Positions 41,886-64,000 of a stretch of DNA of 64,000 nt are shown here, piece by piece. This stretch comes from a virus, in IMG/VR virus record IMGVR_UViG_3300034105_004893, positions 101,208-165,207 of that record. One strand, 5' to 3'. The notes under the pieces are model-generated. The model was not told where the DNA came from. It saw only the letters and a program-made list of their open reading frames with translations, and searched no databases. The translations under genes and the position numbers were made by a program. The first letter of the stretch is position 1, and every line of letters starts with the position of its first letter.

Positions 41886-41956
41886 TCTATATGTTCGCCA
41901 GACTGAGATATGGATTGGATTTGCGTCTATATGTTCGCCAGACTGAGATATGGATT
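41886..41956. repeat. 31-bp direct repeat, two copies 40 bp apart
   Basis: Identical copies at 41886-41916 and 41926-41956, containing TATGTTCGCCAGACTGAGA. The second reaches the stop of the YkgJ-like gene. They lie upstream of the methyltransferase start and downstream of the fibre region, so they could be paired operator sites or a duplication scar. Confidence 0.9.
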
Positions 41957-42362
41957 ATGTGGTTTTTTCTTTTATGAATTCATCTGGTCCATTTATGAAA
42001 ATTTTGCCGTCATATTGTATTATTGCTGGGCAGTTGTGTGTTTGGCAGAATGTTTGGATTTCTATAAGGACATTATCATCCATTTTCTTACCCATTTCGA
42101 TAGCTCTGAGATATTGACCTTTGCTCCATTTTTCGACTGATATGATGACTTTTGATTTTTCTGGTTTGAGGTTTTCGGAGAAAAGACCTTGGAGCCAAGC
42201 ACACTGGTAGGTTTTGCAGACTTCTGGTCTGGTTTCGTATATGGAGCAATTTCCTTTGAGAAAATGGCATGGTTTTCCTCCGCCAAATTTGTGGCTGTAG
42301 GATTCGCCTTTTAGCCAGATGCAACAGGCATTGCAATCTCCACATTCCCTATTGATAGTCAT
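41955..42362 (-). CDS. YkgJ-like CxxCxxCC protein
   Basis: Start placed at MTINRECGDCNACC because a longer frame lies wholly inside the upstream gene. CGDCNACC, CHFLKGNCSIYETRPEVCKTYQC is the metal-chelating signature of the YkgJ/Fe-S-type family (UPF0153). 135 residues. Overlaps the RCC1 gene by 14 bp. Its role here is unclear; redox or metal supply to a neighbouring oxygenase is a guess. Confidence 0.75.
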   Translation of the reverse strand: MTINRECGDCNACCIWLKGESYSHKFGGGKPCHFLKGNCSIYETRPEVCKTYQCAWLQGLFSENLKPEKSKVIISVEKWSKGQYLRAIEMGKKMDDNVLIEIQTFCQTHNCPAIIQYDGKIFINGPDEFIKEKTT

Positions 42363-43812
42363 CTTGGTATTGTATCGCTGCTGTTGTATATGTACCAGCA
42401 GAAACTTCTTTCCAGTTTGTTCCATACATTATAGTTTGAACTGGGGAGCTTCTATTTGTTCTTGTATTGTCTCCTAATCCACCATAAGAATTCCTTCCCC
42501 ATAACCAAAGCGTTCCGTCTGTCTTTATTGCTGCTGTAAAGCCATAACTACTACATACAACTTGTTTCCAATTCGTTCCATATGCAATTGTTTGAATTGG
42601 TGATGATCTATTGTTTGTTACTCCTGCAATTTCAGGAGAAGGCTTTACAGCACCAACTCCAAGGCTTATCGTTCCAGTCCATGTTCCAGTGAAACTACTT
42701 GGAGTAAAAGTTATGCTGACATTAGTACTTATCGCAGATACGGTAGTCCATAATACTGATTGTGTAGATGTATACACATTCATGCCTATGGACACTCCAG
42801 TAGTGTTAGATGTATTAAATGTATTGCCATTAATTTTAGAGCCAGAAACAGTAACTGGACTTGTGCCTGGATCACCACTAGTGGCAGGAGTAGGTTCAGT
42901 AGATACTGTCAATTGTCCATAAGAATTCCTTCCCCAAGTCCAAAGAGTTCCATCAGTCTTTATCGCTGCACAATGGTGGGTTCCAGAAGACACACTTTTC
43001 CAGTTTGTTCCAAAGGCAACCGTCTGTACTGGTGATGATTTGCTTACTGTTGTATTGTCGCCAAGCTGACCATAAGTGGCATTATTACCCCAAGCCCACA
43101 AAGTTCCGTCTGTCTTTATCGCTGCCGTGTGATTGCCACTACATACAACTTGTTTCCAGTTTTTCGCAAATGTAACTGTTTGAACTGGTGAACTTCTATT
43201 TGTAATTGTGTTGTCGCCTAATTGTCCACTAGTATTCGCACCCCAACACCAAAGCGTACCGTCTGTCTTTATCGCTGCCGTGTGATTGCCACCAGACGCA
43301 ATCTGTTTCCAATCAGTTCCACCAGCAATAGTCTGTACAGGAGAGCTTCTGTGTGTAACTGTGTTATCACCTAATTGACCCAAATTGTTATATCCCCAAC
43401 ACCAAAAAGTACCATCTGTCTTTATCGCTGCTACATAGCTGTCGCCACAAACAAATTGTTTCCAGTTTGTTCCAAATGTTACTGTTTGAACTGGTGATGA
43501 TTTATTTATTACTGTGTTATCACCTAATTGACCGAAATTGTTAATTCCCATGGTCCACAAAGTTCCATCTGTCTTTATCGCTGCTGAACTTAAACCAAAG
43601 CCAATATCAACTTGTTTCCAATTTGTTCCATATGCAACTGTCTGTATTGGCGAACTTCTGTGTGTAACTGTTGTATTGTCACCTCTCTGACCCCAAGAAC
43701 CCTGACCCCACAACCACAAATTCCCGCTTCTGAAGTAATCAGCACGAACATAATAGTCTTCGAAATCTACTGTCGTATTATCGGCATTCTTGAATCTAAA
43801 TGGTGTTGACAT
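42349..43812 (-). CDS. RCC1-repeat beta-propeller fibre protein
   Basis: Start placed at MSTPFRFKNADNTTVDFEDY, overlapping the oxygenase-like gene by 17 bp. 487 residues. About seven RCC1 units (GTLWxWGxNxxGQLGDNT, SSPVQTVxxGTNWKQV, HTAAIKTDG), expected to form one seven-bladed propeller. A 70-residue insert before the last units (SGDPGTSPVTVSGSKINGNT and onward) looks like a separate beta domain. Similar units fill the large fibre further along. Probable receptor-binding or decoration protein. Confidence 0.85.
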   Translation of the reverse strand: MSTPFRFKNADNTTVDFEDYYVRADYFRSGNLWLWGQGSWGQRGDNTTVTHRSSPIQTVAYGTNWKQVDIGFGLSSAAIKTDGTLWTMGINNFGQLGDNTVINKSSPVQTVTFGTNWKQFVCGDSYVAAIKTDGTFWCWGYNNLGQLGDNTVTHRSSPVQTIAGGTDWKQIASGGNHTAAIKTDGTLWCWGANTSGQLGDNTITNRSSPVQTVTFAKNWKQVVCSGNHTAAIKTDGTLWAWGNNATYGQLGDNTTVSKSSPVQTVAFGTNWKSVSSGTHHCAAIKTDGTLWTWGRNSYGQLTVSTEPTPATSGDPGTSPVTVSGSKINGNTFNTSNTTGVSIGMNVYTSTQSVLWTTVSAISTNVSITFTPSSFTGTWTGTISLGVGAVKPSPEIAGVTNNRSSPIQTIAYGTNWKQVVCSSYGFTAAIKTDGTLWLWGRNSYGGLGDNTRTNRSSPVQTIMYGTNWKEVSAGTYTTAAIQYQDDYQ

Positions 43813-62962: not shown

Positions 62963-62981
62963 ATATATTTTTAAATATATT

Positions 62982-64000
62982 TTATAATATACTTGCTCCT
63001 ATTTTTATAGTCCATGTACCTGATGTTATATTTGCAGTTAGTTCTAAATTATCTGATGTTATACCTGCTGTGAATATTAATCCTCCAGTAGATGATCCTA
63101 AGTCTTCTGTCGAAGTGTCTGTGAATTCAACAGTATTTGCACTTGCATTCCAAACAACCATAATCTGCCCATAACGATATCCATTAGTTGTTGTATTTAT
63201 AACATAATAATTAAATGTTGCTCCAACTCCACTTGTGTCTGAAACACTAAAAACTACAAATGTAGATGTTCGACTTGTAAAATATCCAGATAATGTTTTT
63301 ATAAATCCACTTGAATTTACGGAGAATATAGGACTTCCAGACAGATCACCAACTTCAAGTATATCACCTGTTATCGTATCACTAACTTGAAACAATTGAC
63401 CAGTGCTTCCAAGTATATTAACTGCAATACCAGTAGCACCAGTAGCAGAACCTAAAGTTAATGTGTTGCCATTAAATGTAAGGTTAGATTCTGCATTAGC
63501 TGCATTGGATGTTCCGTCTGATGTTAATATTCTGTTGTCAGCAGGATTTGAAATGGTATTGAATCCAGCACCTGTTTCGCCAGTTGAACCAGTCTGTCCT
63601 GTCGTTCCAGTTTCGCCAGTAGCACCAGTCTCACCAGTGGTTCCTGTTTCACCTGTCGTGCCAGTCTCACCTGTAGTTCCAGTCTGTCCTGTCGTTCCAG
63701 TTTCACCTGTCGTTCCAGTTTCACCTGTCGTGCCAGTCTCACCTGTGGTTCCAGTCTCACCTGTGGTTCCAGTTTCACCAGTGGTTCCTGTTTCACCAGT
63801 GGTGCCAGTTTCACCTGTCGTTCCAGTTTCACCTGTCGTTCCAGTTTCACCTGTGGTTCCAGTCTCACCTGTGGTTCCAGTTTCACCTGTCGTTCCAGTT
63901 TCACCTGTGGTTCCAGTCTCACCTGTGGTTCCAGTCTCACCTGTGGTTCCAGTTTCACCAGTGGTGCCAGTTTCACCTGTCGTTCCAGTTTCACCTGTGG
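62982..64000 (-). CDS. Collagen-like fibre protein, 5' end outside window
   Basis: About 339 codons are visible; the frame is open to the right edge. The C-terminal head ([18 protein letters not shown], then [48 protein letters not shown]) is a close paralogue of the head of the 60122-62962 fibre. To its left in the protein is a GETGTT collagen-like rod starting at about 63568. Probably the next fibre of a tandem set. Confidence 0.87.
63568..64000. repeat. Second collagen-like repeat tract, truncated by window
   Basis: Same 18-bp organisation as 60712-62645, with slightly different unit variants, running into the window edge. Confidence 0.9.

Follow-up and report, generated by a model that had tools for sequence, protein, structure and literature searches.

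Which molecules would be modified by an oxygenase and three sulfotransferase-like proteins that are encoded among the tail fibre genes of a virus? This question is raised by the right end (positions 101208-165207) of a 165,207-base record of an uncultured virus; the whole 64,000-nucleotide stretch analysed here is termed the window, and all coordinates below refer to it. An earlier note on this DNA had claimed a route by which collagen-like Gly-X-Thr fibres are hydroxylated, glycosylated and sulfated. Its inventory of Gly-X-Thr fibres, a Thr-rich linker and RCC1 propellers was borne out, as two collagen genes, a 2445-aa protein, three more RCC1 genes and the linker protein are all present in one minus-strand cluster. 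Transcription runs from the two Gly-X-Thr collagen genes through the gene for the Thr-rich linker protein, which carries two discoidin-like domains, to a discoidin-like adhesin, then to the sulfotransferase-like genes STa, STb and ST4, the P4H-like oxygenase and the 2445-aa RCC1/collagen/S74 protein. Further RCC1 genes follow, and a weak second oxygenase-like gene lies between them. The individual features are:

62982..63998, minus strand: Gly-X-Thr collagen-like fibre with its 5' end off the contig; 48 GXY triplets
60122..62962, minus strand: Gly-X-Thr collagen-like fibre (Pfam Collagen, E = 9e-105); 216 GXY triplets, with neither Pro nor Lys in them
58251..60122, minus strand: Thr/Pro-rich linker with two discoidin-like domains (PHROG tail protein, 4e-10; alignment)
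58818..58835, minus strand: CGKSGC motif, proposed modification loop (amino acids 430-435 of the 58251-60122 protein)
56979..58241, minus strand: tail adhesin, discoidin (F5/F8)-like, whose gene lies immediately before STa and overlaps it by 4 nt (PHROG tail protein, 5e-12)
56449..56982, minus strand: STa, sulfotransferase-like, core of the cassette; no Pfam match, weak fold match to sulfotransferases
55932..56459, minus strand: STb, sulfotransferase-like paralogue of STa; no Pfam match, motifs shared with STa
55432..55956, minus strand: ST4, Sulfotransfer_4-type sulfotransferase (Pfam, 1.9e-28; PDB sulfotransferases, 1e-14)
54872..55501, minus strand: cassette oxygenase of the P4H/PHD2-like 2OG-Fe(II) type; 209 aa from the first start, with relatives starting near residue 27
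47470..54807, minus strand: 2445-aa protein with RCC1 propellers, collagen segments and an S74 chaperone (Pfam RCC1-like, E = 9e-293; S74, 8e-15)
46313..47470, minus strand: RCC1 propeller protein (Pfam)
45506..46309, minus strand: DUF4376 tail-fibre protein with PVVEE repeats (Pfam, 2e-6; PHROG tail fiber, 9e-5)
44296..45504, minus strand: RCC1 propeller protein (Pfam)
43796..44299, minus strand: second oxygenase/cupin-like protein, between RCC1 genes (PHROG 2OG-Fe(II) oxygenase, E = 0.003)
42349..43920, minus strand: RCC1 propeller protein (Pfam)
41257..41799, minus strand: methyltransferase (Methyltransf_11; Pfam, 1e-6) adjoining the fibre cluster, a putative cassette member at most
39829..41253, minus strand: TPR protein with a glycosyltransferase-like C-terminal part
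31823..33216, minus strand: GT25 gene pair, about 9 kb away from the fibre genes

Elsewhere, the window carries a stress-type gene set, PrkA - DUF444 (YeaH) - SpoVR (4808-12236, minus strand), in which at least two stretches with intein splicing and LAGLIDADG domains break up the 1369-aa SpoVR. At 268-1908 on the plus strand, a Cys-rich repeat protein has a match of the STIG1-like kind (7e-10) along with a tandem repeat of 81 bp, and DUF7487 repeats built of 69-bp tandem units are fused to a Mom/GNAT-like domain at 37812-39800 on the minus strand.

The identity of the enzymes was addressed by alignment, profile searches and structure prediction. The P4H-like label given earlier to the oxygenase held for its catalytic residues and predicted structure, but its matches fell below the Pfam cut-offs, where the P4H families were not reached. 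The residues H134xD136 and H185 and the 2OG-binding R196 are invariant in an alignment of 18 sequences. The AF2 model (pLDDT 86) and its top structural matches predict a double-stranded beta-helix fold, for which Foldseek returned PHD2-type prolyl hydroxylases (E = 1e-7), with other 2OG enzymes also among the top matches; in a viral structure library, the model further matched an oxygenase from a Synechococcus phage and a protein from an uncultured phage. A PDB profile search gave nothing significant. Altogether, 22 relatives (55-97% identity) were identified in viral contigs and none in genome contigs. By its triad and predicted fold, the cassette oxygenase is assigned to the P4H/PHD branch of the 2OG-Fe(II) superfamily. 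The second oxygenase-like protein is also present as claimed, albeit with the weak match listed above. More distant oxygenases (30-42% identity; loci L144-L159 and L190-L209) mostly have a small cupin-like gene upstream and probable tail genes nearby, and lack STa.

As for the three sulfotransferase-like genes, all were found in a row as claimed, and they differ in how firmly they can be classified. ST4 is, by its sequence, a firm member of the PAPS sulfotransferase family (Pfam, about 2e-28). STa and STb, which are 33% identical to one another, are without a Pfam match while keeping the RSG and R-x-P-x-x-R-F motifs in common; across 30 sequences of their family, R-S-G-S and V-R-x-P-x-x-R-F-x-S are invariant or nearly so, and we take these, from family knowledge, to be 5'-PSB-like and 3'-PB-like PAPS loops. 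The AF2 model of STa (pLDDT 91) has sulfotransferases as its best Foldseek matches, although weakly (E = 0.017), and Sulfotransfer_2 of Pfam was matched by two of the 30 family members. No sequence match was obtained for STa in a PDB profile search. STa and STb thus appear to form a family of their own, which we call sulfotransferase-like, the assignment being weak by both sequence and predicted fold. In viral contigs, STa has 120 relatives; genome contigs yielded three weak matches, and tblastn of STa and the adhesins against named phages found none.

Comparison of gene order revealed what the cassette travels with. In a non-redundant set of 40 cases below 85% identity, the upstream neighbour of STa always points in the same direction and is separated from it by no more than 21 bp, often with an overlap; in four of the 40 it is another cassette enzyme. 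Same-strand, close neighbours make up 58% of all adjoining gene pairs in these loci, so that the chance of such a result would be about 5e-10 if the cases were independent. The proteins encoded upstream of STa are of many kinds, many with laminin-G, F5/F8, fn3, Mtd_N, BppL_N or Gly-rich domains, and they also match baseplate and minor tail PHROGs. For nearly all oxygenase relatives, STa or an STa paralogue lies just upstream of the oxygenase, with a tail adhesin just upstream of that, whereas STb and ST4 come and go among the oxygenase loci. The conserved unit is adhesin, STa and oxygenase. Most STa relatives without the oxygenase follow adhesins whose N-terminal parts differ widely but whose C termini share one Gly-rich domain. 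In loci L078-L116, this domain of about 185 aa (TSGTSYTVPSGATSMKAWAVG...AVVLYFT) is carried by many unrelated N-terminal fibre parts and is followed by an STa relative, an arrangement that reads as a tip module accompanied by a partner gene of its own.

The oxygenase and the sulfotransferase-like genes thus travel with tail fibre genes, and their co-inheritance is best read as a route for the modification of virion proteins. Within these adhesins, a short motif, C-x-K-x-[G/S]-C, was found in 19 of the 21 proteins encoded at cassette loci, at 33 sites, when up to two extra residues are permitted before the second Cys; shuffled sequences gave a mean of 0.047 sites and a maximum of 2 in 1000 shuffles. 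None of 11 homologous adhesins encoded away from the cassette has the motif (Fisher 6e-7, an optimistic value, as the proteins are partly homologous and several of the 21 are homologues of one another). Two of these 11 belong to L032, where they are tandem paralogues of the adhesin that adjoins the cassette. When the motif was relaxed, it occurred in 27 of 1480 distinct ORFs, 22 of which are cassette-locus adhesins or a truncated copy. The motif-bearing adhesins span five unrelated families (c6, c9, c145, c10 and c134), and position 3 of their C....[GS]C hexapeptides is always Lys.

In the discoidin family, both genes have the motif at the equivalent loop of each tandem domain, and discoidin homologues without the cassette (L168 and L169) have a different sequence there. 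In c9 adhesins it is found in one loop or two, the second being an insertion, and in c145 at three places. Among the three tandem c9 paralogues of L032, solely the one that adjoins the cassette carries it. In the window, the motif reads CGKSGC at 58818..58835, and the ORFs of the entire 165-kb contig contain just one other match to C.K..C; the three further motif loops of the window read NTKSGV, NNKSGT and SQKSGG; the first two of these are, by alignment, the loops at the motif positions of the 56979..58241 adhesin. Lys and Gly thus persist where the cysteines are lost. The adhesin of L033 has no motif and keeps G-K-G-G; this, like the Cys-free loops of the window's own F5/F8 adhesin, counts against the adhesin-tailoring reading given below. 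In STa-only adhesins, a search for a comparable convergent short motif returned just the homologous Gly-rich C-terminal domain. Near the distant oxygenases (30-42% identity), the motif is absent save for CGKAGC at the end of a downstream protein in two close relatives, which we discarded as an independent test and took as likely chance. A further ORF, L184:5458-6123, looks TnpB-like in its N-terminal part and continues as the CGKSGC-bearing C terminus of a c9 adhesin, an arrangement that would fit the insertion of a transposase gene into the adhesin.

The STa tree indicates that the oxygenase joined the STa family only once or twice, and a phylogeny-corrected test on this tree had too few events. 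For this reason, the motif can be assigned to neither the oxygenase nor the sulfotransferase. Its association with the oxygenase is not independent of that STa clade, and the independence rests on the adhesin side.

Taken together, we consider it slightly more probable than its converse that these genes form an adhesin-tailoring cassette, in which the oxygenase would act on the CxKxGC loop and the sulfotransferase-like proteins on the adhesin. The likely target site would be this adhesin loop and not Gly-X-Thr. From the gene order and the kept motifs we infer the enzyme activities, the motif as substrate, the residue modified and the order of the steps, as follows. One gene run would yield the oxygenase and the sulfotransferase-like protein or proteins together with the receptor-binding adhesin encoded just upstream, and the enzymes would modify this adhesin before or during tail assembly. 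The oxygenase would most likely hydroxylate the C-x-K-x-[G/S]-C loop, or its K-S-G core, with Lys as the likeliest residue; the sulfotransferase-like enzyme would sulfate the adhesin, perhaps at the new hydroxyl and perhaps at another site, and receptor contact or the stability of the tips might be altered as an outcome. Disulfides are unlikely in the reducing cytoplasm, where virions assemble, so that a disulfide-closed substrate would have to form elsewhere or be unneeded. The most specific form of this proposal, a dedicated pathway of large phages in which the prolyl-hydroxylase-fold oxygenase hydroxylates the CxKxGC Lys on unrelated adhesins and the partner sulfotransferase sulfates the adhesin, leaving a recognition surface that could not be read from sequence alone, is proposed more tentatively and would be the less expected outcome.

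The motif could also be explained otherwise. The CxKxGC loop might itself contact the receptor, bind a metal or form a disulfide, and be exchanged together with the cassette, the enzymes acting elsewhere on the adhesin. Such a role is consistent with the variation of the loop positions in domains with adhesin-type matches, with Cys pairs that could close a tight loop, and with the pairing of STa relatives that lack the oxygenase with motif-free adhesins. Nevertheless, a hexapeptide with an invariant Lys in five unrelated families resembles an enzyme recognition site more than a fold-specific contact, and we regard this explanation as unlikely.

A broader doubt is whether adhesins are the substrates at all, since the enzyme genes might merely share the fibre neighbourhood while their products work on nucleic acid, small molecules or the glycans of the host surface. 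Many sugar enzymes are scattered in this genome, and DNA repair or 2OG/nitrogen signalling has been proposed for phage 2OG oxygenases (PMC3037559, PMC9146016). However, the strict adhesin-first gene order in divergent phages and a motif that comes and goes with the cassette both argue for the adhesin, which renders such substrates distinctly unlikely.

Collagen was the substrate originally claimed, in a BclA-like, Thr-linked scheme in which the Gly-X-Thr fibres are hydroxylated, glycosylated and sulfated. In its favour, the cassette of the window and of the closest relatives (L015-L017) has collagen genes on its flanks, a distant oxygenase relative (L150) adjoins a GPT-collagen gene, and Thr, a possible O-glycan acceptor, occupies 406 of the 414 Y positions of the window's GXY triplets. 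However, these 414 triplets hold a single Pro and a single Lys, both in X, and no Pro or Lys acceptor in Y, so that classical collagen hydroxylation and the action of GT25 on hydroxylysine would have essentially no substrate. As for a prolyl substrate of the oxygenase, Pro is absent from the conserved motif as well as from the collagen Y positions, but Pro-containing linkers occur in some adhesins. Furthermore, collagen above the Pfam cut-off is found in just 5 of 19 oxygenase-bearing records, and most relatives have the cassette without it; these records are fragments, in the short ones of which absence is weak evidence, yet several span 127-381 kb, and none of the contigs of 381, 223, 178, 146, 135 and 127 kb has collagen above the cut-off. 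The adhesin, not collagen, is the closest conserved neighbour. Collagen was accordingly rejected as the cassette substrate on triplet composition and co-inheritance, and the collagen scheme as a whole appears very unlikely. Thr glycosylation of the Gly-X-Thr fibres is possible, with no tie to the cassette.

The glycosylation arm fared similarly. The window does contain sugar-enzyme genes, namely two GT25 genes, a GT2, a GT9-like piece, FkbM/TylF methyltransferases, a further Sulfotransfer_1/3 gene and the TPR protein. The glycosyltransferases and sugar methyltransferases among these had been placed just upstream of the fibres, which is correct for the TPR-glycosyltransferase-like gene and one methyltransferase. 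In contrast, a distance of about 9-24 kb separates the fibre cluster from the GT25, GT2 and GT9 genes and from most of the sugar-methyltransferase genes, which occur on both strands and are outside the fibre operon. Since GT25 occurs in 3 of the 19 oxygenase-bearing records, TPR-GT in 2 of 19, and the second oxygenase in 2 of 19, these being the two closest relatives, the proposed hydroxylation-glycosylation-sulfation pathway is not a conserved unit, and all three were dismissed as cassette parts. Over the 165-kb contig as a whole, eight GT2 genes as well as FkbM/TylF methyltransferases are dispersed across the two strands, which makes for an unusually high number of sugar enzymes.

Finally, STa-type proteins could be adhesin assembly chaperones with a decayed sulfotransferase fold, given their weak fold match (E = 0.017) and their position directly downstream of a fibre gene, the classic place for the small gene of a tail fibre chaperone, but the near-invariant PAPS-loop-like RSG-S and R-x-P-x-x-R-F in a widely divergent family, and the presence of a clear sulfotransferase-family gene, ST4, in the cassette, render this highly improbable.

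If the adhesin-tailoring cassette operates as proposed, host recognition by such phages would depend on tip chemistry, and adhesins expressed alone would miss that chemistry. Phage 2OG oxygenases and sulfotransferases are common, and EGLN3-like oxygenases in particular are reported to be widespread in marine phages (PMC12774648); the function of the phage sulfotransferases has been called unclear, and the roles of the oxygenases have only been guessed, e.g. DNA repair or nitrogen signalling, or left open (PMC10580990, PMC3037559, PMC9146016, PMC12774648). A motif that tracks the enzymes in unrelated adhesins offers a concrete candidate substrate. In the open-access papers covered, we found no report of phage tail fibre hydroxylation or sulfation or of a prolyl hydroxylase that accompanies collagen-like fibres, nor was the CxKxGC motif, or a hydroxylation/sulfation cassette linked to receptor-binding adhesins, described there.

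Among known systems, the cassette oxygenase resembles the PHD2/EGLN and P4H prolyl hydroxylases in its predicted fold and HxD...H...R triad, but it differs in an identity of about 12-18%, in a motif that lacks Pro and in not reaching the Pfam P4H families. Its nearest named relative is a cyanophage 2OG-Fe(II) oxygenase, that of Synechococcus phage S-SCSM1 (27% identity), which also lies among virion and tail fibre genes, whereas STa was not seen there and CxKxGC is absent from the neighbouring genes read. The Gly-X-Thr repeats and GT25 genes of this contig recall Bacillus BclA and the collagen lysyl hydroxylase/GT25 pathway, but here the repeats are nearly devoid of Lys or Pro acceptors and the enzymes are not co-inherited with collagen. 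Phage-encoded enzymes that modify virion proteins have a parallel in mycobacteriophages, where, as relayed by later papers, glycosyltransferases put glycans on the capsid and tail tube (Freeman et al. 2023, via PMC12619734, PMC11256854); compared with that account, the modification proposed here would involve an oxygenase and sulfotransferase-like enzymes tied to a receptor-binding adhesin. A likeness in the way of working alone is to human AspH, a 2OG-Fe(II) oxygenase that modifies C-X-D/N-X4-F/Y-X-C at the residue two after the Cys in a Cys-closed loop (PMC9293771), a placement matched by the Lys of the proposed C-x-K-x-G-C; AspH differs in that its target is Asp or Asn, in its ER-lumenal location and TPR domain, and in not having the usual metal-binding triad.
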